Source of the DNA: Aurantiochytrium sp. KH105
Lineage: Eukaryota > Sar > Bigyra > Thraustochytrida > Thraustochytriidae
Length of the DNA: 64,000 nt
Assembly: GCA_003116975.1 (NCBI GenBank)
Contig: BGKB01000046.1
Span: forward strand, 1 to 64,000
Direction: 5' to 3'
Shown here: positions 20,983-34,031 of the stretch, one piece after another
Layout of the letters: every line of letters starts with the position of its first letter
How positions within the stretch are numbered: position 1 is the first letter of the stretch
The notes under the pieces: generated by a model
The model's database searches: none
The model's input: the letters and a program-made list of their open reading frames with translations, nothing else
What the model was told of the DNA's origin: nothing
Translations under genes and position numbers: made by a program

Positions 20983-23900
20983 ATGGAGGCGGCGGCGGCG
21001 GCGGCGGCGGCGGCGGCAGCGGCAGTCGAAGATGCCGCGACGGCGAGTCTGCGGGGCGCCGAAGAGCTCAAGGCAGTTGACCGCGAGCTCAAGGTCGCCA
21101 GCCGCAGCGTGCCCCGCGGCGCCTCGCGCGAGAGCGTGGACCGCGAAATGCGCCAGCTGGAAGCCAAGCGCGAACGCACAGCGACCATGACGCTCGCGCA
21201 GGAAAAGACCCTGCTCAAACAGTTATCCAAGCTTCGCGGCGTGCGAAAGGCCCTCGAGACAGTTGCCGCCCTGGAGCAGCGCAAACGGGCGCTGCTCCAA
21301 GCCCAAGCACTCAACGCTCAGCGCCGACGGAAATCGCAGCTTTCTGTCAAGGAGGCAGAGGCTAGCACCAGGCGAGCCGAGCTTTGTCAGCGCATATCCG
21401 CATCCAAAGGCGGTGCACTTGTGACGCCAGACATGCTTGCGGAACGAACCGTCACCGTGCCCCCGACTCGTATCGGCGAGTTTGTTGGCAAGCAAGGAAC
21501 TCGTCTTAGTAAGCTTGAAGAGGCGAGCTTTGTCACCATTCAGGTGCACCCGTCCGGTCAGGTTAGCATTCTCGGCGTCCTTGAGGACGTGGAAAGTGCC
21601 GTCCTCGCCGTGTCCAAGTTCTGCGACGAGGTCACCACCCAGATCCCGCTCTCCGATGCAGACCTGCACGTACTCAGGATGGACAAAAGTACGCATCTCA
21701 AGACCATAGAGTCTCTCCTCGACGTTAGCATCTCTCTGACAGGAAATATTATGTGGGTGCGGGGTCAGCCCGACGATATAGAGCGTGTCAAAGGCGCTCT
21801 CAACGACCTCGGAGCGACCACGGAAGAGGTTGAAGCCGTTCCCAATGGATCCTTCCTCCGCATGCTCCTTGCTCAAGGCGGCGCAGAAATTCAGACACTT
21901 GAGACCGCTCATAATGTCACGCTCGACCTCGACCGCACAGCCGGCCGCATCAGCGTCCTGGGAAGGGCGGCAGACGTTTCCCAGGCTACCCAGAAACTGC
22001 GCGCTCTCGCTTTAGAAAACGAAGAACAGACGCGCCGGATTCCCCTGATATCTGCCGATCAGGCCGCGGCCATTGTCGGCAAGAAGGGATCCACAATCCG
22101 CGAGCTGCAGCAAGTCACGGGTGCGCACATTGATGTGCCCAAGTCTGGCCCCGAGGGCAACACAAAGTCGGAGAACCTCCCCTGCGTCGTCTTGCGCGCG
22201 ATTCCTGCGAAGCTTGACGCCGCAGAACAAGCGGTTCGCGACGTACTCGAGAAACATGCAAAGGAAAACGTTACTCTCGACTTTCCCGAAGACTTCCATG
22301 CCGTTCTCTTTGACGCTGTTGCCGGTGCGGACAACGGTCCCCCTTCCTCCCGCATTAAGCAGATCCAGGACGCCTCTAGAGGGGCCTCTATTACGGCCCA
22401 GCGCCGCGATGTGGCCAAAGCCCGTGGCACAGCCGTACCTGTAGATGGCAAGGCAGGCGGCGCAAAGACTTTTCGTGTTCTCGTCCGTGGGCCTGAAGAT
22501 GCTGTCGCTACAGCCGCCGCCGCAGTGCGCGATCTCATCGCTGCGCTCAGGGTTGAACATGTCTCTGTGCCCGAGGAGGTCCGCCCCGCGGTGATTGGTA
22601 CCAAGGGTGCCGTCATTGGCAAACTCCAGCGCGAGACACAAACCAGCATATCTCTCGTTGACGGCCAGGCTGTGATTCGGGGCCGCGCCTCAGAGGTCGA
22701 GGCCGCCAAAGCCCAGATCGAAACGATCATTGAACGCTTTGCGCGCGAGAACACCACCCTTTTCGTCCTCACCTCTGCAGCAGGAAATCTTATTGGCAAA
22801 GGCGGAGCTACACTGCGGCGTTTGCGCGAGGAGACAGGTGCACAAATTGACGTGAATTTGGACCGGCGCAAGGGCAGCAATGCTACCGCGAACGACGCAC
22901 CGGCAGACAAGTTCGGTACCATCGCTGCGGTGAGTCCGGTTCGTGTTCACGCGGAAGACCCATCGAAAATCGAAGCTGCCATCGAGGCCATTCGAGCGCT
23001 CGTTGGCGATGCTCTTGTTCCCGAGAAGGAGCGCGAGGCTTACAGGGAATCGATCGTTCCTATTCCTTCGCCTGAAGCGGTTCGTAGGCTCGTCGGCCGG
23101 AACGGGGAGACCATTCGCGGAATCCAAGACGAATTCTCCGTTCAGATTGACGTTTTGCGTGGCCCGCAAGAGGTCCGTGTTCGCGGCAAAGCCAACGACG
23201 CTCTTTTGCAAGCGCTCGATCAAGTTCGTTCCTTGTTACAGGAAGGAGTCCGCATTCAGGAAAAGCTTGTGAATGTACCGACCAAGGTTCTCTCGACGCT
23301 GGATGATGCTTCTGTGGTGCGTCGCCTCCAAGAAGAAACTGGCGCCAAAATTCGAATCGAAGAAGAAGCCGTCGTTGAGGACGATACGCCGTCGTATCTT
23401 CGCCCGAAGCATGTGCCTGCCCCTGTCAAAGTCGTTTTCCTTGAAGGGCAGGGTCCGAATGTGCAATCTCTCAAGGTCGTACTTGGAGAGATGGCGTCTG
23501 GTATTGACCATGAAATCCTTCGTGTTCCCCATGACCATGCATCTCATCTCACGCAGCCCTCTGTCAAGGTGAATCTGGAACGTATCGAGTCCCAACACAA
23601 AGTCAAATTTCAGGTGGACGAAACACGTGGCCAGGTCCGGATTGCAGGTCGGTCGAAGAACCTCGCGGCTGGCAAAAGCGCCCTCTTTGCTCTCCTTCGT
23701 TTCTCCTTTCCCGATCAAATTGTTCGTGTCCCCCTGGATGATGCGTCTATGATTGCTTACATCATTGGCAAAAAGGGCGCTTCCATTCGCAAAATTCAGG
23801 AGGCTCATCCAAACGTGCAGATCAACGTCCAACGCGATCCCTGCTGCGTCGAGCTCATCAGCAGCGAGGCCGACGCGGTACAGGCTGCTCAGCGCGCCAT

Positions 23901-25155
23901 CGGGGATATTGTGCAAGCCTGGCATCGCGAGCGCATGTCTATCCCAGTTCCGGCTGAGGCCATTCCTTCCCTGATTGGAAAGAAGGGGGCAAACATTCGA
24001 GAGTTGCGCGCAGCAAGCGGAGTGGCGCAGATCGACGTGAGTCGCGACGCTGGCTGCATTCGCCTTCGTGGCGCCGAAGAAGCGCTTGCCAAGGCAAAGG
24101 AGCTCATTGAGGAACACGTGGAGCGCTACGAGCGTGAAAACGACGTGATTCACATCGATCCTGCCGATGTTCCCGTGATCATCGGGTCCAAGGGGGCAAC
24201 CATAAATGCAATTCAAGAGGAGTCTGAGGCTCGTATCGATGCTTCGCAGGCGCAGCCTGGCGTTCTTCGTCTTCAAGGCTCAGAAGAATCGATCGCAAAG
24301 GCTCGTGAGCTGATCGATGCCAAGCTGCAACAAGTCCGTGAGGAGCGCAATGAGCAGGCGAAACGTCGTCTCGCAGAGCAGGAGCTTCGCAGACAAAAAG
24401 CGAAAGAAGAAATGCAGATGCAGGAACGTAAACAGGAAGAAAGTACTCGAAACGAAACGAAGAACTCATCCGAAGGCAATGTCAATTCCCCCGGAAACAA
24501 TGACAATAGCAAGGAAACTGCAATCATGCAAGCAAAGCTTGATCAACTCATCGGGATCAAGCCACCGCCTTCGTCCGTTTCATCTCTCGAAGCTCCTGCT
24601 GTTCCGCTCGGGACACCCGTCGAGCTTGATACGAGCTCTGTGGGCTTTTTACGCCGCACTTCAAATAAATCCAACAAGCCAAAGCCCAAGCCGGAGCTCA
24701 TGGTATCCGATTCGCTGACGAGCGGGACTTCGCTGCCAACGGAGCCGCCTTCTCAAGGCCACGGCCACGTTCAGGCGCACCCGGAGGCACCATTGCCGGC
24801 CGCCCAAGCCCAGCGCATTTCGGGCTCCGAAGTCATGAGCATGCTCCTCGGCGGGACCGGCGCCCCATCGCAGACGACAACGCAAGCTCTTCCTGGTCTC
24901 AGTTCCTCGTGGCAGACGCCTCCTGGCCCAGCCGCCACTGGCTTGAATCCGAGCAGCATTTGGGGGGCGAATACAAATCCTATCCCAAGCCAAAGCACTC
25001 CCATTGGCAGCACGAACACTAGTCGGCATATCTCAGGTACCAACGTAGGACTTTCGCGAGCGCCACCAGGGTTTGCTCAGCCTGGTCTTCCGAGTCTCGA
25101 GGCAGATAGCGAATCATTTTACAAGAGCGCAGATGGATTCTCCGTGCGCCTCTGA
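20983..25155 (+). CDS. Vigilin-type multi-KH RNA-binding protein
   Basis: The 1390-residue protein carries about 13 tandem KH-type modules between residues 150 and 1120, as in vigilin/HDLBP and yeast Scp160, which bind mRNAs and ribosomes at the endoplasmic reticulum. About eight modules keep the GxxG loop (VGKQGTRL, VGKKGSTI, IGTKGAVI, IGKGGATL, VGRNGETI, IGKKGASI, IGKKGANI, IGSKGATI). The others are degenerate, as is also common in vigilin. An alanine-rich start and a helical segment precede the array. After it come a glutamate/arginine-rich coiled coil (about 1110-1165) and a 220-residue Ser/Pro/Gly-rich tail. The ATG at 20983 directly precedes the alanine run. No intron interrupts 4.2 kb. 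Confidence 0.92.
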   Translation: MEAAAAAAAAAAAAVEDAATASLRGAEELKAVDRELKVASRSVPRGASRESVDREMRQLEAKRERTATMTLAQEKTLLKQLSKLRGVRKALETVAALEQRKRALLQAQALNAQRRRKSQLSVKEAEASTRRAELCQRISASKGGALVTPDMLAERTVTVPPTRIGEFVGKQGTRLSKLEEASFVTIQVHPSGQVSILGVLEDVESAVLAVSKFCDEVTTQIPLSDADLHVLRMDKSTHLKTIESLLDVSISLTGNIMWVRGQPDDIERVKGALNDLGATTEEVEAVPNGSFLRMLLAQGGAEIQTLETAHNVTLDLDRTAGRISVLGRAADVSQATQKLRALALENEEQTRRIPLISADQAAAIVGKKGSTIRELQQVTGAHIDVPKSGPEGNTKSENLPCVVLRAIPAKLDAAEQAVRDVLEKHAKENVTLDFPEDFHAVLFDAVAGADNGPPSSRIKQIQDASRGASITAQRRDVAKARGTAVPVDGKAGGAKTFRVLVRGPEDAVATAAAAVRDLIAALRVEHVSVPEEVRPAVIGTKGAVIGKLQRETQTSISLVDGQAVIRGRASEVEAAKAQIETIIERFARENTTLFVLTSAAGNLIGKGGATLRRLREETGAQIDVNLDRRKGSNATANDAPADKFGTIAAVSPVRVHAEDPSKIEAAIEAIRALVGDALVPEKEREAYRESIVPIPSPEAVRRLVGRNGETIRGIQDEFSVQIDVLRGPQEVRVRGKANDALLQALDQVRSLLQEGVRIQEKLVNVPTKVLSTLDDASVVRRLQEETGAKIRIEEEAVVEDDTPSYLRPKHVPAPVKVVFLEGQGPNVQSLKVVLGEMASGIDHEILRVPHDHASHLTQPSVKVNLERIESQHKVKFQVDETRGQVRIAGRSKNLAAGKSALFALLRFSFPDQIVRVPLDDASMIAYIIGKKGASIRKIQEAHPNVQINVQRDPCCVELISSEADAVQAAQRAIGDIVQAWHRERMSIPVPAEAIPSLIGKKGANIRELRAASGVAQIDVSRDAGCIRLRGAEEALAKAKELIEEHVERYERENDVIHIDPADVPVIIGSKGATINAIQEESEARIDASQAQPGVLRLQGSEESIAKARELIDAKLQQVREERNEQAKRRLAEQELRRQKAKEEMQMQERKQEESTRNETKNSSEGNVNSPGNNDNSKETAIMQAKLDQLIGIKPPPSSVSSLEAPAVPLGTPVELDTSSVGFLRRTSNKSNKPKPKPELMVSDSLTSGTSLPTEPPSQGHGHVQAHPEAPLPAAQAQRISGSEVMSMLLGGTGAPSQTTTQALPGLSSSWQTPPGPAATGLNPSSIWGANTNPIPSQSTPIGSTNTSRHISGTNVGLSRAPPGFAQPGLPSLEADSESFYKSADGFSVRL

Positions 25156-25455: not shown

Positions 25456-28400
25456 TCATTTCGCAAAAATAAATCGCTCGAGGATGCCTCGCTTTGATGG
25501 CGAGTTTAATTTGATGGCCTCGCATCGCACAGTAAAGGACAGCAACTTGGCATAGAGTTCCTTGAATGCATATTGGACTTCGGCAAAGCGAAAACAGGTC
25601 CGTCCTACATTGTTCCCCGTTTGTACAGGGTCCTCGACGACCAAGAGGGCGGTATAGTCGCCGCTCGAGGGCGCCGCAGTGCCCGCACGAGATCGCTCGC
25701 CAATGCGCATTGTTTGCCGCTCATTGCCTGCGGTTGTGTAATCGACCAAGATCGCATCTTGGGAGGGATTAAATTCTCGCCCAAAGAACTGCAAGAGGTC
25801 CATCAGCAAAAGACCGAGGCTCAAGCGCGACGAGGCATGTTGTGCCGTGGCGGCAGTGCCTCCAGACATCGTCCCTTCGAGCGTACCCCCAAAAGATAGA
25901 CCCAGATCGCTCATTGAAGGCGAGCGTGCGCCAAAGTCCTCCGAACGACGCCGTGCGCGCCATAATCTCCGATCCACTGAACGATTTAGCGAGGCCACAA
26001 CCATAAGCACGAGGGCATACGAGGATAGACCTCCCGAGAATGGGTCATGAAGGCCTCGTTCAGCAAGAAATCGCTTCAGTGTGAGCACGATCGGGCGGAG
26101 CTGCTCGTGGTGCTGCACAAGGCGACGAATATGCCCAGCGGCATGCAAACCGGCATGCGAAGGCAATGCAATTGTCAAGTCCACGTTGACGGCGCGACCA
26201 ACCACTTCGGGGTTTGTCTTGAGTTTTACCACGGGCATCTTCGCACGATCAAGAATCTTAATATCGGACAACCAGTTTTTGTGACGCAACACGCGACCGA
26301 GAATGTTGCAAATGTTCGCGCCATTCACGTCCAGCCGGCCATGACTCGTAATGAGAACCAGGTCCAAGTCAGAGAGACCCGGCACCGCCAGTCCGCTCGC
26401 GTACGATCCAAAGAGCTCAGCACGCGAACCATGTCCGAAACACAGGGATGCCTCGTGCTCGATTTTCGAGCGAATGTCCGCAATCGTACTTTCGTACGAA
26501 ATATTCTCTTTGGTGCAAGCGTCTGCGTACTCTTGCAGCTCGATGCGAAGGCGACGATGCAGATTTCGCATTTGATCGTCCATGTGGTCGTGAAGGGAGG
26601 ATTCAGGCATCGAACCATGAACCCCGGACTCCGAAGACATTGCTCTCTGCGTCTTGCCCCGGGAGGAACTCCCCCAAGGCTCGCCATTATCCCCATCCAA
26701 TCCGAAACTCTGGACGTGTAGACCCGGGCCCTGATATCCGAGACTTCGACTTCGATGGTGACGCGTCGTTGGCCATACTGGCATCCCGGTGCTCTCCGTG
26801 GTCAACGAAACGACCGAAGAGGTCGAGGTGTTAGCGGTGTCTCCAGAAAGCTCCGAGGCCCGCGAACTGAAGCGCTGGCGTATTGCCGGGCTCGCGTCAA
26901 CACTACTTGCCGTGCTACGTCGAGAGCGCGAAGCTCGCATCACCGCGTCAAAGCTCATTCCCGCACCGGCGGCTGCTTGCGCTAGAGACGCAAGAGAGTT
27001 ACCCACGGAGGTGCTCTTGAGACTTGAGATCGACATTCCGCGATCCCGCAAATGCTTGAAGCTATTGGATCGCGTGAGCTCCCGCGCCGGAGTACTTGGC
27101 CTTGTCCGACTCGAATTGTCCATGCTGGTCTCAGAACTGCTTGTGCGATCACGAGTCTCTGCGACGCGAGGTGGAGAGTCCTGGCTTCTTGCCTCGCCGT
27201 AGCTTAGCATCGCTGGCGAGGAGCGAATGCGGCGCAGCGGCAGCACAAAGCCTTTGCGCCGTGCGCTCCCGGAACCGCCCCCGCCCATGGCGCGCTCCAA
27301 AGCACGCAGTTCGACCTTTTGGCGAAGCGCCTCAATTTCGGCCGCCTTGAAGATCCATTTCACGTTTTTGCTGTTGATGAGACTGTCGCGGCCTCGAGCA
27401 GAATCAAAGCTCGACTCGCGACGGAGCGACTCGGAGGGCCACGAGGGCTCCAGTGATGTTAAGCTCTGCGCATTCCTGTGCGTCGGCGGGAGGTTGCGCG
27501 AATGCGAAGGGGACAAGGAAGATGGCCCCTGCACGGGAGAATAAGACGGCGACGTGGAAGACCGCTCCCCTGCGCGCTGAGGGGTCTGAGGCAAGGGTGA
27601 CAACAATGGCGAAACAGGGCTCAACGAACTCGTGGCGATTTGCTCGAGGTGAAGAGATCCACGCTCGCCATTGACGTTGTCCACAGGTGTCGAGGAAGGA
27701 GCGGAGGTCGACTCCGAGTCCTCAGCTCCTTGCACCACGTCATGGGTGGTATTGGTTAGCTGCGCTGTTGCGCTTGCCTCCGCCGACAGCAAGCTTAGCT
27801 CCTCGAGACTGCCGTTCACACCTGCGGCAAGGCGTACCAAGTCCGACGCCGATTCCTGAGAAGGAAGTGAGCTATGTGCACTGAGCCGGAGGGATGAGCT
27901 ACGGCTTGACCGGCCGGAAACAACACCCTCAAGATCGTCAAAGTTGTCTCTTTCCCCAGGAGCAAAAGCCAGACTCGCCGCCGATGGCCCCACTGCACCG
28001 CCAAATCCTTCGTCTGCTAGCCCCGGTGCGCCGTTGACAAGGAGATCATCGCTTCCCGCCGCCCCAAGCGAGACGAGAGAGTGTGAGGAGGAGGAGGCTG
28101 ACCCGATCGAAGCTGTAGAGGCAGCTGAAGTGCTGAGCGCCCCGAGAGCCGCCGTGACCGTACCCAGCCGATGCGAGCCGGGCGAAACGGCGTCAAGACT
28201 AGACGCCTCTTCGTCTTCCTCGCGTTCAAGCGTAATGAGACGGGCCTCGATAAGTGCACGTACGAGCCGTGTAAAGTGCTGCGAGCGCATTCTCTCATTC
28301 TCTTCCTCGGAGAGAGTGAGTCGACGCTTGCGTTCGTCCTCAGCGGCCTCGATGGCCATCTCCATGTTCTTGATTCGATCAGCTTCTTCTTGCTGTCGTG

Positions 28401-31400
28401 TCACAGGCGCAAAGGGACAGACAGCGAGGTGAGCGGAATATTCTGACCGCAGGATGATGTCAGTGCATCCCATGATGGAGTAAGGGCACACAATTTCGTA
28501 GCGTTCCATATCAACGCCACTGCGGGAAATCGTGGCAAGGTTGAAGCGGTCGAGGTCGATCGGCCCCGTATCATCGTCATGAAAAGCGCAGTGCACGAGG
28601 TGCTCAGGAAGCATAGCGCGAGAACACTCGTGCTCGCAGCCCATCACCCTGTAAGGACATGTGACAACGCAGTCAAGTGGATTATAGAGCATATTGATGT
28701 CATCGTTGGACTCGTGGTCGTCGACAACGTCGCGCGCACTTGCGCGAAAATCGCATATTGAAAGGTGCTCGTCGAGTTCGCTTCGTAAACACGTTGTTCC
28801 GCATCCGAGAATCGTGTAAGGACAGACTACTTCGTAATCGTCTACATAGGGCGAATAGCCATCATCGCTATCGTCGCTAAAGCTTGACATGGAATCCAAA
28901 TCGGAATCGAGGTCGGCTTCAGAGAGATAGTTGGCTTCAGAAGAGTCCGCCAGATCCGCCCCTGCAGACAAGCTTTCCTGTTTGCGCACATTACTGGGCA
29001 GAAGAGCCGGTGAAGACTTGGCTACGCCCTCCCCGTTGCCTCCCAGGCTACTTTCGAGACGCGCGCGACGAGCTCGCGAAGCTTCTGCGCGGATCTTGCG
29101 ACGCGCTTCGCGCAATACAATGTCAGCGCCAGCACCTCGCTTGATGCGTCGGTCGCGCTCTACCTCTTCTTGACGAATCGTCCACTCCTTGAGAACGCGC
29201 CGTCGGCGATTGACGCGCCGCTCGTAGGCTTTGTCACGGCGTGTCTGTCGCTGACGCTCCGCTTCAGTGGCTTTGATGGCCCACTCGAGACGCCGCGCAC
29301 GTTCTAGTTTCTCTTGGTATTTGTCGTTCAAGTGTTCCTGCACGCGTCGCGCGCGCTCTGCTTCTGCCATCTGAATTGCCCGAGCCACACGCGTTTCCCG
29401 ATCCACGTCGTACAGACGATAATAATTGGCAAGCACCTCGTGTCCCTCTTTCGACGTGCTCGCTGTGGCCCCTATTGCCCCACTGCTGCTTCCGCTCGTA
29501 GCAGAAGCTGCACTACTGTGCGCGCTGGCACCCGCTGCAGGTGTCGTCGACCCAAGCGGTTGGCCCTTGGTCTCCACACTGGTTTGCGTTGCTTCTCGTA
29601 CGGTGGCTGCAGCAGCAGCGAGGCTATGCTGCCCTCCAAAGGACGACCGGGTCTCAAAGGAATCGCCGGCGTCGCTCCAGCTAGTACTTTGGCTGTATGG
29701 TCGTGGTGAAAAATGCGACTGAGCAAGGCGTAGAGAGTCCGGGTTGGGTAGAGCCTTGGCAAGGTCGAGAACGAGCAGCTCAAGTTCATGGGTCTCGCCT
29801 CCGATTGGAGAAAACGGGCTGCGCACCTCGTCTCGGCTGGGGTGGAACGCCTTGTCGGTGTCTCGATCATGCCTTTCTTTGACGTATACAGCCGTAGGAC
29901 TTCCGTATGTAGATATCCGAGAATTCACGCCCCGATGTTCCATATAGCCTTCGTTTTCTCCCCTTGATGTCGCGTAAGCGTGGACTTGACTTAGAGACGC
30001 GCTGCCTGCGTGCGCATGCATTTGGCCTTTCTTTTGTGAGTCTTCTTGGTACAAAAGAGTTTGTGCTGCTGCTAAAGGAGGAGCAAGATGTGAGTAATTG
30101 TGCATGTGCGTTGCAGCCATTGACGATGGTAAAGATGGGCCGTATGCGCCCTGCGTCGGCATCGATGGGCCATAAAAGGGTTCGCCGGGGTCTTCGGCAA
30201 GCATATTCATATCAGGGTTGTAATTTGCAGGATAAACGTGGTGGCGGTGTTGCTGCTGCTGCTGAGGAGGCAGCATTCCAACACCAGCAGCATTGCTCAA
30301 ATGATCCCCTGAAGTCGGGGATCCAGGATTTGATTGTCCGTTGTAGACAGGAAGACTATCTTCTGAGCGGTATTCGCGAGGCATCTCCTGATGGAGATGG
30401 TGAGGAGTGTGATAGCCAGGGTTCGTCATCACCGGGGTCACATTTGCTGGCGAAAGCCACTCGTCGTGCCGCACGCCTGCCCATGCGTGCGCTTGTGGTT
30501 GTGCCTCGATCGGTGGTGGAGGTAAAGGCGGAGGTGGTGGCAACGGAAGCAACGGGTCTGCATGCTGCTCTGCGCGACTGGCAAGACCATGATTTTGTGG
30601 TGCTGCTGTCGTGATTCGAGACCCACGAGGGATGTCACTTGTCAACGTTCGCCCAGGGGCACTCGCTGACCTCGCGCGCGCCTCAAGTGGGACAGCATCG
30701 TCGGGTAGACCCCTTTGCAAGTCGGCTGTTTCTTGGCCGCCGAGAACAGAGAGCGCAGCATGAGAAGCCGTTTCCTCCGCGTTGACGAGTGGAAGTCGTG
30801 ATCGAGACCGTCGCTTTTCCGTCGAATCCGACCCTCCTGTGTCTTCCTCATTCTCTGCTTCTTCAAGCACGGGCAAAGATCCTTGGCCGCGCCGCTTCTT
30901 CTTCTTCTTTTTCCTCTTTCGTTTTGATTTTTCTTGATCCGAATTAACGGGATGATCGTCTGTATCGGCGTGCTCTACGTCTTCATCTCGGTCCTGAAAA
31001 AGCTGGTTTTTTTCTTTCGTATTGTCTCCACTTTTGCAAGCATCAGCATTGCTTTCTTCGGCGTTGTGCGCGCTTTGTTCACGTCGTTCGCGGGTTTGCT
31101 GCTGCTCATGTTTTTTTGCGATTGTTGGTTTTGTTTCTGATTCTGTTTCGGTATGTGCGGTAATGGTTTCTTTCCCGAAAGATTGTGCGTGTTCTGCGGT
31201 CTGATGTGTGCTCCTGATATCTTTCAAAGCGTCTGCAGCGTTGTTTGCTTTCTTTCGTTTGCGCTTGCGCGGGCCCTTATGAGATCGTCCGTACATAAGA
31301 ATTTTAAGAGTCTTTTTATCAGCGCTGCTCGCAACACTTGCAGCGTCATCGTCAAAATTGTCCATTGCAGACTCGCTGTTATCGTCGCGGCAAATATCGA

Positions 31401-31503
31401 CGTCGCTTTCGTGGTGATTTTCATGTTGCTCGGCAGCAGCAGCACTCTCGTCAGAGTGTGCGCCGTTTCGTGGGCTTTGATCATCGTGCTCTTCCTGCTC
31501 CAT
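25456..31503 (-). CDS. TRF4/PAPD-type nucleotidyltransferase with TRAF-type zinc fingers
   Basis: This is an uninterrupted frame of 2015 residues. The last 350 residues are a non-canonical poly(A)/uridylyl polymerase of the TRF4/TENT4 type: LFGSYASGLAVPGLSDLDLV with the GS and DxD catalytic residues (near 1695-1715), the third aspartate in NVDLTIA, the LKRFLAERGLHDPFSGGLSSY helix region, and DPVQTGNNVGRTCFRF. Near 890-1030 lie three TRAF-type zinc fingers that begin CPYTILGC, CPYRVMGC and CPYSIMGC and end HLxxC. Before them (about 700-830) is an Arg/Glu coiled coil. The N-terminal 600 residues are lysine-rich then proline/serine-rich disordered sequence. TRF4 enzymes tail aberrant nuclear RNA or stabilise mRNA; this protein is three times the usual length. 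Confidence 0.88.
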   Translation of the reverse strand: MEQEEHDDQSPRNGAHSDESAAAAEQHENHHESDVDICRDDNSESAMDNFDDDAASVASSADKKTLKILMYGRSHKGPRKRKRKKANNAADALKDIRSTHQTAEHAQSFGKETITAHTETESETKPTIAKKHEQQQTRERREQSAHNAEESNADACKSGDNTKEKNQLFQDRDEDVEHADTDDHPVNSDQEKSKRKRKKKKKKRRGQGSLPVLEEAENEEDTGGSDSTEKRRSRSRLPLVNAEETASHAALSVLGGQETADLQRGLPDDAVPLEARARSASAPGRTLTSDIPRGSRITTAAPQNHGLASRAEQHADPLLPLPPPPPLPPPPIEAQPQAHAWAGVRHDEWLSPANVTPVMTNPGYHTPHHLHQEMPREYRSEDSLPVYNGQSNPGSPTSGDHLSNAAGVGMLPPQQQQQHRHHVYPANYNPDMNMLAEDPGEPFYGPSMPTQGAYGPSLPSSMAATHMHNYSHLAPPLAAAQTLLYQEDSQKKGQMHAHAGSASLSQVHAYATSRGENEGYMEHRGVNSRISTYGSPTAVYVKERHDRDTDKAFHPSRDEVRSPFSPIGGETHELELLVLDLAKALPNPDSLRLAQSHFSPRPYSQSTSWSDAGDSFETRSSFGGQHSLAAAAATVREATQTSVETKGQPLGSTTPAAGASAHSSAASATSGSSSGAIGATASTSKEGHEVLANYYRLYDVDRETRVARAIQMAEAERARRVQEHLNDKYQEKLERARRLEWAIKATEAERQRQTRRDKAYERRVNRRRRVLKEWTIRQEEVERDRRIKRGAGADIVLREARRKIRAEASRARRARLESSLGGNGEGVAKSSPALLPSNVRKQESLSAGADLADSSEANYLSEADLDSDLDSMSSFSDDSDDGYSPYVDDYEVVCPYTILGCGTTCLRSELDEHLSICDFRASARDVVDDHESNDDINMLYNPLDCVVTCPYRVMGCEHECSRAMLPEHLVHCAFHDDDTGPIDLDRFNLATISRSGVDMERYEIVCPYSIMGCTDIILRSEYSAHLAVCPFAPVTRQQEEADRIKNMEMAIEAAEDERKRRLTLSEEENERMRSQHFTRLVRALIEARLITLEREEDEEASSLDAVSPGSHRLGTVTAALGALSTSAASTASIGSASSSSHSLVSLGAAGSDDLLVNGAPGLADEGFGGAVGPSAASLAFAPGERDNFDDLEGVVSGRSSRSSSLRLSAHSSLPSQESASDLVRLAAGVNGSLEELSLLSAEASATAQLTNTTHDVVQGAEDSESTSAPSSTPVDNVNGERGSLHLEQIATSSLSPVSPLLSPLPQTPQRAGERSSTSPSYSPVQGPSSLSPSHSRNLPPTHRNAQSLTSLEPSWPSESLRRESSFDSARGRDSLINSKNVKWIFKAAEIEALRQKVELRALERAMGGGGSGSARRKGFVLPLRRIRSSPAMLSYGEARSQDSPPRVAETRDRTSSSETSMDNSSRTRPSTPARELTRSNSFKHLRDRGMSISSLKSTSVGNSLASLAQAAAGAGMSFDAVMRASRSRRSTASSVDASPAIRQRFSSRASELSGDTANTSTSSVVSLTTESTGMPVWPTTRHHRSRSLGYQGPGLHVQSFGLDGDNGEPWGSSSRGKTQRAMSSESGVHGSMPESSLHDHMDDQMRNLHRRLRIELQEYADACTKENISYESTIADIRSKIEHEASLCFGHGSRAELFGSYASGLAVPGLSDLDLVLITSHGRLDVNGANICNILGRVLRHKNWLSDIKILDRAKMPVVKLKTNPEVVGRAVNVDLTIALPSHAGLHAAGHIRRLVQHHEQLRPIVLTLKRFLAERGLHDPFSGGLSSYALVLMVVASLNRSVDRRLWRARRRSEDFGARSPSMSDLGLSFGGTLEGTMSGGTAATAQHASSRLSLGLLLMDLLQFFGREFNPSQDAILVDYTTAGNERQTMRIGERSRAGTAAPSSGDYTALLVVEDPVQTGNNVGRTCFRFAEVQYAFKELYAKLLSFTVRCEAIKLNSPSKRGILERFIFAK

Positions 31504-32360: not shown

Positions 32361-33176
32361 CTAGATGGAGGGATAATAACATGGAAGAATCCCGAAAGAA
32401 GGAATGTGTGATTGCTTTTGCTTTTTTTTTTGAGCAACTTGAAAAAAGTGTATTTATTGGATTTAGAGGAAAGAGAAATTGCTCATCAGCATTCATCCTT
32501 AAACATTCATGCATTTACATGTGCGAGGCTATTATCGTGGCATGCCATGGCATGAAGTCATGAGCTGCTCGATAACTCTACAATGTGTTGTCATGGCTTC
32601 GTCCCCAAAGTTCTTTTACGGTTTTCTGCTCCCCCAGTCTGATGCCATCTTCTGCCCAGACTGCCTCCACCGGACAACCGGAGCAAGCTTTTCCACACGG
32701 TGAATTTTCCTGCTGCGCTCCCAAGCTTTCCTTCGGTCCTTCCTTGCGTCATCGAAAGCGCCGACCACCCCCTGCGACCGGTCCCGTCTAAGTGCGGAAT
32801 CGCCACATTCTTCACTTGCGCCCCGGAAATACCCACTTGCGAATGCCCACTTGCGGGCCGCGACCCCGCGCTCGAGAGCAGCAGAAACCCAAACGACCGC
32901 TCCGCGCGCAGCGTCGAGGACGCTGCGCGAGGCCGGCGGCGCGCGCGCGAGCGGGCGGACTCCGCGCGGGCGGACGCGCAAACAGGCGCGCAGAACCGCG
33001 CGGCCGGTCCTCCGCGGGCGCCGGCCGGCGTCGGCGTCGGAGACCGAGACGGGAAACGGATCCCGGCGCAACGACTTGAACTCGCGCAGTGCTGCTCCGT
33101 CGGGGACGTCCGGAGCGCGCTCCGGAGCCCGGCCGACCGGGCGAGCGTGGCACTCTCCGACGAAGGGACGGTCGCG
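32361..33176. other. Upstream region of the 33177 gene
   Basis: Three CACTTGCG elements (32813, 32834, 32848) lie within 43 bases, about 330-360 bases upstream of the next ATG, after which the sequence becomes very GC-rich. A frame open from 32700 joins the downstream gene in frame but is arginine/alanine-rich and probably 5' leader. No separate gene is seen. Confidence 0.55.
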
Positions 33177-34031
33177 ATGGTCGGGAAGAGACCGCTGCCT
33201 GCGGCCGACAGCAACGCCTCGCGCAGCGGCGAGGTGCGAGAGGCGAGAGACCTGCTTGGAGCTTCTGGGGTGAAGAAGCTCCGCCTCGACAGCCCTGTTC
33301 TGGGCGGCGCCGCAGGTGGAGAGATGGACGACCAGGCGTACACGAGAATGCCAGATCCCGGACGCGACGTCGCGGTCGCCTACGCAGACTGGAATAATAA
33401 GCTCCGAAGACTGCACGCCGAGCGTATGCTGCGCCATCGTCGGAGTTCGCGAGAACGCGATGCGTTCGCAAAGCGAGCATCGTCCGGAGGTAGCTCATTT
33501 CAGGGTGGACACGGCGTGCTGGGCCCAATTCGACCCTCAGGCGAGTTTCCACCCTTTCCACCACCCAGCGTCCGGGCGCGGACGCCGAACTCCTCGTCAA
33601 TGACCGCCGCCGTCCCACCAAGTAGTAAGCCAAGTGAGTTGAGTGCCGCATCTGCGTCCGGAGCAAAGCCTCTTAGTTTCGCTGGCGAACGAGGGACATC
33701 GTTGGGATTCTCCGGCGCACAGTCTAAATTAGTTTTCCCTATGGCGGCACCTTCAACTTCAAAAAAGAGAAAGGATCAAGACGGGGACAGCTCCATGGAC
33801 GAGGCTGCTGTTGCTACCTCAAGGTTTCAGTCGCCGTACCCATACGCGTCTTCCTCGTCCTCAACAGCTATGGCGACCAGTCCATTAAACAAAAGACGAC
33901 GACGAATGGAAATTTCTCCATTAACAGATAGTAATTGTGCAAAACTGGGGCCCTTCGGGCCAGCCTCTCTGGGGAGTGAGGCGCCAAACACGAGCAACGA
34001 CGACCGCATGATGGACGACCCGCTGCTTTGA
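33177..34031 (+). CDS. Unknown Ser/Pro-rich, probably nuclear protein
   Basis: The 284-residue protein begins MVGKRPLPAADSNAS at the first ATG after the GC-rich leader. Residues 55-100 (MDDQAYTRMPDPGRDV, then YADWNNKLRRLHAERMLRHR) look like a short charged helix. The rest is low-complexity serine/proline/alanine sequence with basic clusters KKRKDQ and KRRRRME that could be nuclear localisation signals, followed by SP dipeptides. I recognise no family. The longer in-frame start at 32700 is an ATG-less, arginine-rich extension and was not used. Confidence 0.65.
   Translation: MVGKRPLPAADSNASRSGEVREARDLLGASGVKKLRLDSPVLGGAAGGEMDDQAYTRMPDPGRDVAVAYADWNNKLRRLHAERMLRHRRSSRERDAFAKRASSGGSSFQGGHGVLGPIRPSGEFPPFPPPSVRARTPNSSSMTAAVPPSSKPSELSAASASGAKPLSFAGERGTSLGFSGAQSKLVFPMAAPSTSKKRKDQDGDSSMDEAAVATSRFQSPYPYASSSSSTAMATSPLNKRRRRMEISPLTDSNCAKLGPFGPASLGSEAPNTSNDDRMMDDPLL

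Follow-up and report, generated by a model that had tools for sequence, protein, structure and literature searches.

TRAF-type zinc fingers and a Trf4-like nucleotidyltransferase in one open reading frame of Aurantiochytrium sp. KH105

The locus and its reading frame

The stretch of DNA analysed here, called the window throughout, comprises 64,000 nucleotides of the thraustochytrid Aurantiochytrium sp. KH105 (contig BGKB01000046.1, positions 1 to 64,000). On its minus strand, at 25456..31503, lies an open frame of 2015 residues that runs from an ATG to a stop codon at 25456-25458 and encodes three zinc fingers of the TRAF type and, in the same chain, a nucleotidyltransferase that begins about 640 residues beyond the finger array. 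About 1640 residues precede the catalytic part. The original prediction had claimed an uninterrupted frame of this length without stating its strand; we found it open from the ATG on the minus strand, and frame 1 of the plus strand over the same positions is interrupted by numerous stops.

A second copy of the gene on contig C86 made it possible to ask how the frame has been maintained. This copy likewise encodes the three fingers and the catalytic core, in an open frame of 2012 residues from the first methionine, and it is evidently the other allele, since it adjoins the same convergent KH-protein gene as the window copy. With codons aligned via the two proteins, the overall ratio of nonsynonymous to synonymous polymorphism (pN/pS) between the alleles was 0.20, and that of four further tailing-enzyme allele pairs in the genome, mostly taken from partial frames, was 0.10-0.20. 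Four indels, six codons in total, separate the alleles beyond residue 30, and both frames remain open. In binomial tests that treat sites as independent, silent changes were in excess both in the finger block (residues 881-1045; no amino acid change and eight silent changes, p = 5.5e-6) and in the long linker between the fingers and the catalytic part (residues 1046-1640, 26584..28368, minus strand; 20 amino acid and 35 silent changes, pN/pS 0.20, p = 4e-9). The corresponding counts were 50 and 55 for residues 1-880 and 10 and 31 for the catalytic part (residues 1641-2015).

Given that neither allele has an interrupted frame and that silent changes clearly exceed expectation over the frame as well as in the linker and the finger block, the fingers and the catalytic part most likely form one real gene, as had been supposed, and an intron or gene border within the linker appears unlikely. 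As judged from the two alleles, the fusion appears to be conserved. The alternative is a gene-model artefact, in which two genes, or a gene and a read-through intron, happen to share one frame. Such an artefact would fit the weak constraint at residues 30-230 (pN/pS 0.76) and 1091-1300 (pN/pS 0.51), but the open frame of both alleles and the silent excess in the linker make it very improbable. Residues 1046-1090 contain a single change between the alleles, which alters an amino acid.

The finger block, the catalytic part and their surroundings

The pattern C-x6-C-x11-H-x3-C is matched exactly three times in the protein, at residues 894-917 (28753..28824), 949-972 (28588..28659) and 1006-1029 (28417..28488, all on the minus strand), and these matches contain nine of its 19 cysteines. 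In 20,000 shuffles of the protein, one match arose in two cases and two or more in none; in the six frames of the whole window there is one more match, which lies outside the gene. When searched alone, the finger segment scored 35.4 bits against Pfam zf-TRAF (cut-off 27, E = 1.8e-8, three stretches) and 32.8 bits against zf-TRAF_2 (cut-off 27), with Sina_ZnF under its cut-off (27.6 bits versus 32). With the whole protein as query, zf-TRAF barely passed (27.7 versus 27) and zf-TRAF_2 fell under (19.7 versus 27), and single fingers of 40 residues each reached 17-19 bits, also under the cut-off. Profile searches could have overturned the original assignment of these fingers to the TRAF type; instead, zf-TRAF exceeds its cut-off on the segment and on the whole protein, and by these profiles the three fingers are TRAF-type and predicted to bind zinc. 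Among solved chains, a profile of the three fingers placed TRAF5 first, although the match is weak (E = 0.067) and spans the second half of the finger; the finger block alone had no match in the PDB up to E = 1.

The protein thus shares its finger pattern with TRAF and SIAH/Sina proteins, from which it differs in other respects. Fingers of TRAF proteins stand head to tail, whereas those of the window protein are 31 and 33 residues apart and are joined to an RNA-tailing domain. Neither RING nor MATH nor any other ubiquitin-related Pfam module was found in the window protein up to E = 1, and without RING or MATH at that threshold it does not group with the TRAF proteins or the RING E3 ligases. 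An NCBIfam search with the protein gave no match up to E = 0.1.

The catalytic part contains a nucleotidyltransferase palm (residues 1673-1778, 26170..26487) that scored 38.4 bits against MTPAP-like_central (cut-off 27) and 24.2 bits against NTP_transf_2 (cut-off 21). Alignment with paralogues and with Trf4 and Cid1 locates the predicted catalytic D1712 and D1714 in SDLDL (residues 1711-1715, 26359..26373), and alignment with paralogues locates the third aspartate, D1775, within NVDLTI (26179..26181). Five aligned tailing domains of the genome all keep these three aspartates, as well as the G and S before them. The central domain includes an insertion of about 50 residues (approximately residues 1841-1894, 25822..25983), with limits set by eye from an alignment with paralogues and Trf4, followed by a PAP_assoc-like part (residues 1895-1964, 25612..25821) and the nucleotide-recognition stretch EDPVQTGNNVGRT (residues 1957-1969, 25597..25635), placed by alignment with Cid1; all of these features are on the minus strand. 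The solved chain nearest to the catalytic part alone is yeast Trf4 (3nyb; E = 9.4e-15, 57.3 bits), followed by Cid1 (E = 2e-11), with TUT7 also among the relatives, and Trf4 again leads when a profile of five domains from the genome is used (E = 4.5e-50). These comparisons point to a nucleotidyltransferase of the Trf4/Cid1 superfamily, on its Trf4 side, with an intact-looking catalytic core. The earlier description of a complete TRF4/TENT4-like domain holds for the motifs but has to be tempered for the central domain, given its insertion and weak score.

The recognition stretch also bears on which nucleotide the enzyme would add. The histidine found there in terminal uridylyltransferases is absent from the window protein: N1964, in GNNVGRT, aligns where Cid1 chain 4nkt has a histidine and chain 4fhx, presumably a mutant built for altered specificity, has an asparagine. 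Since asparagine stands at the Cid1 histidine position, and since one inserted histidine converts TENT2 from ATP to UTP use (as stated in a passage of PMC6232586), the window enzyme is expected to add A. Could it instead be a uridylyltransferase, or add mixed tails? Its solved relatives include Cid1 and TUT7, TUT4 and TUT7 come next after Trf4 by profile, and sequence cannot prove nucleotide specificity; set against the asparagine and a best relative that is Trf4, however, we consider this quite improbable.

Several further features lie ahead of or around the fingers, on the same strand. Two basic clusters, RKRKRKK (residues 79-85, 31249..31269) and KRKRKKKKKKRR (residues 194-205, 30889..30924), are possible nuclear localisation signals. 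A basic segment N-terminal of the fingers, probably helical as judged by eye, spans residues 705-845 (28969..29391) and has a net charge of +19. In three segments around the fingers, hydrophobic periodicity was not above that of shuffles, giving no sign of a coiled coil there. Scans of the viral_contigs set with the whole protein, the catalytic part and the finger block found no relatives; one scan returned four peptide-pattern matches, none of which was confirmed. As for neighbouring genes, the convergent one (20983-25155, plus strand; 1390 residues), also present beside the C86 allele, encodes a protein of vigilin-like build, rich in KH domains, with a KH_1 score of 291.7 bits over eight stretches. 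Also beside the window gene is a 443-residue frame that starts with GTG (32700-34031, plus strand) and for which Pfam gave nothing up to E = 0.001; it may not be a gene.

Tailing enzymes and TRAF-type fingers in the genome

We searched the genome (76,034,492 bases on 367 contigs) for the palm family and found 15 places, 13 of them over the Pfam cut-off, which we interpret as eight loci, of which seven are paired. For the four of the eight loci that were compared with Trf4 3nyb, the scores were 158.6 bits (C245), 74.6 bits (C26), 57.3 bits (the window gene) and 54.3 bits (C16); C245 further scored 70.1 bits against MTPAP-like_central and 47.3 bits against PAP_assoc. By these scores C245/C280 is the canonical Trf4 of the genome, and because C245 matches Trf4 far better, the window gene is best described as Trf4-like and not as a Trf4 orthologue. 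The Trf4/TENT4 label of the original prediction therefore survives as a placement on the Trf4 side and not as an identification with Trf4 itself. A tree of 11 rows, with long deep branches and a midpoint root only, sets the window gene with C74, C26, C9 and C16/C41 beside Trf4 and apart from C36 and C100. The clade that holds the window gene is weak, with support of 83/91, and counts as an open fork.

Among the tailing-enzyme frames, as far as these were read, the fingers appear to be particular to the window gene. With a looser pattern applied in six frames, no TRAF-type finger was found in the nucleotidyltransferase frames of the seven other tailing loci over the portions read, which comprised one allele in whole frame for C36, C245, C26, C9, C16 and C74, C100 except for about 106 C-terminal residues, and, of the second alleles, C17, C280, C107 and C41 in whole or part, with C220 and C174 left out. 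The few looser matches at these loci all lie outside the nucleotidyltransferase frames. At the DNA level, the pattern CP-(Y, F or similar)-xxxGC occurs at 32 places in the genome, compared with 22 in a backward control; six are the fingers of the two window-gene alleles, and none falls within another tailing-enzyme locus. A protein search of the genome with the finger block (E up to 0.1) gave two matches, the two alleles of the window gene, and hence no source gene for the fingers. A genome-wide zf-TRAF search is no proof of absence, because the window gene itself is missing from its list.

Other tailing enzymes of the genome carry modules of different kinds. The paralogues C16/C41, C26, C9 and C74, which share the tree side of the window gene, have no fingers that we could see, and C74 instead has a DCD and an RRM. 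At this locus (L011; 4002-8795, minus strand; 1598 residues), a Trf4-like enzyme has an N-terminal DCD (Dev_Cell_Death, 54.1 bits), a palm interrupted by more than 200 inserted residues, and a C-terminal RRM (22.2 bits), which is another unusual combination for a tailing enzyme. Loci L005 and L006 (contigs C100 and C107) encode a Cid1-like enzyme followed by CCHC zinc knuckles (51.7 bits in C100) and by glutamine/asparagine-rich runs, with lengths that differ between the copies.

TRAF-type fingers themselves have varied companions in this genome. Five other zf-TRAF loci were scanned, as pieces and in one copy each; zf-TRAF occurs with WW and ankyrin domains at L047, with RING at L048 and alone at L046. 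Thus, zf-TRAF moves among proteins in this genome, so that its joining to a tailing enzyme is plausible without special meaning, and because its companions differ across the five loci, the finger type alone names no partner. The remaining two loci deserve separate mention. L045 (contig C175; 320-7795, minus strand) is a frame of 2492 residues in which 12 zf-TRAF stretches occur with numerous ankyrin repeats, and L049 (contig C30; 2-1636, plus strand) combines a Ras-family domain with a zf-TRAF match that stays under the cut-off in the scanned piece (21.8 versus 27) and reaches 27.2 bits in the genome scan with its neighbours.

In TRAF and SIAH proteins, fingers of this type adjoin RING domains, which bears on the suggestion of the original prediction that the array may be a dock for the ubiquitin pathway or for signalling, where an E3 ligase, a ubiquitin chain or an adaptor would switch tailing. 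The RING and zf-TRAF protein at L048 is consistent with this, as is the binding of the protein LIN28A by the first TUT4 finger, of C2H2 type (in a passage of PMC6232586). However, the window protein lacks RING, MATH and any ubiquitin-binding Pfam domain up to E = 1, and only one of the five other zf-TRAF loci has a RING in the pieces scanned, which leaves such a dock improbable. A more specific proposal, to which we give similarly little weight, is signal-gated tailing, in which a ubiquitin or signalling adaptor docks on the in-chain fingers and directs poly(A) tailing to chosen RNAs. If true, it would tie RNA fate to signalling within one polypeptide; the literature searched contained no description of a signalling adaptor linked to in-chain fingers of a tailing enzyme.

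Possible role of the finger array

The reading that we put forward, at roughly even chances, is that the protein belongs to the non-canonical poly(A) polymerases, on their Trf4 side, and that its in-chain TRAF-type array replaces or supplements a separate recruiting partner. According to passages of PMC7988573, Trf4 works with the zinc-knuckle protein Air2 and Mtr4 in TRAMP, and TENT4/GLD-4 has ZCCHC14/GLS-1 as partners, so that the steering modules (Air2, ZCCHC14, GLS-1) reside in separate proteins. In the window protein, the three fingers would themselves be the recruiting module, in the role that the Air1/2 zinc-knuckle partners fill for Trf4. The acidic and strongly conserved finger block would bind a protein that in turn delivers the enzyme to its RNA, and the long linker would let the catalytic head reach the RNA 3' end, where, to judge from the asparagine of the recognition stretch, the enzyme would add A. 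The two strongly basic clusters suggest that it may do so in the nucleus.

Contact with protein is favoured over contact with RNA because the finger block is acidic and invariant between the alleles; its net charge is -19, compared with +12 for the region of C100, another tailing enzyme, that holds the CCHC knuckles. This comparison is an indirect test. Several observations nonetheless tell against our proposal. The step from fingers to partner draws on the charge of the block and on what TRAF-type fingers generally do, and 95 of 1850 windows of finger-block length in the protein are equally acidic. The finger profile, which had two matches in total up to E = 10, has the U11/U12-48K finger as its second (E = 5.9, weak), a finger of the RNA-contacting type. 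On the catalytic side, the PAP_assoc score of 20.7 bits is below the cut-off of 22.6; a weak second stretch aligned with Trf4 and Cid1 crosses this part. With the five-domain profile the uridylyltransferases TUT4 (E = 1.5e-36) and TUT7 rank after Trf4.

The U11/U12-48K match raises a different possibility, namely that the fingers bind RNA directly, as an in-chain counterpart of the Air1/2 knuckles or of the TENT1 zinc finger that binds RNA. Against zf-U11-48K (cut-off 21.1) finger 3 reaches 14.8 bits, the segment ahead of the fingers is strongly basic, and passages of PMC6232586 describe a TENT1 finger that touches RNA and a TUT4 knuckle that holds the growing tail. Nevertheless, with a finger block of such negative charge, and with zf-TRAF and zf-TRAF_2 fitting the fingers better than zf-U11-48K, we consider direct RNA binding unlikely.

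With an in-chain recruiting array as the preferred reading, the protein can be set beside known tailing enzymes. It shares with yeast Trf4/Trf5 and human TENT4A/B the palm and central domain, the three aspartates and an N-rich recognition stretch, and differs from them in its three in-chain fingers, the long region ahead of its catalytic part and its central insertion. TENT1/TUT1 and TUT4/TUT7 likewise combine zinc fingers and a tailing domain in one chain; however, their fingers are C2H2 or CCHC (PMC6232586) and not TRAF-type, and the window enzyme has asparagine in place of the histidine linked to UTP use. The modules of mammalian tailing enzymes reviewed in passages of the same paper are C2H2, CCHC and RRM, and the plant review PMC13030794 does not use the words TRAF and zinc in its main text. 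In line with the original prediction, which knew of no described RNA-tailing enzyme of this kind, we found no description of TRAF-type fingers joined to a nucleotidyltransferase in the literature searched, which left most subscription journals and architecture databases outside; the combination may be on record somewhere, unremarked.

In summary, it is the accessory module of this protein that is unusual; its chemistry is expected to be ordinary, and known tailing chemistry is unchanged. Accessory modules steer tailing enzymes to RNAs, and an array of TRAF-type fingers would add a new class to such modules. Moreover, the tailing enzymes of this genome, with their different modules (TRAF-type fingers in the window gene, DCD and RRM in C74, CCHC knuckles in C100), form a natural set in which the relation between module and target can be addressed.

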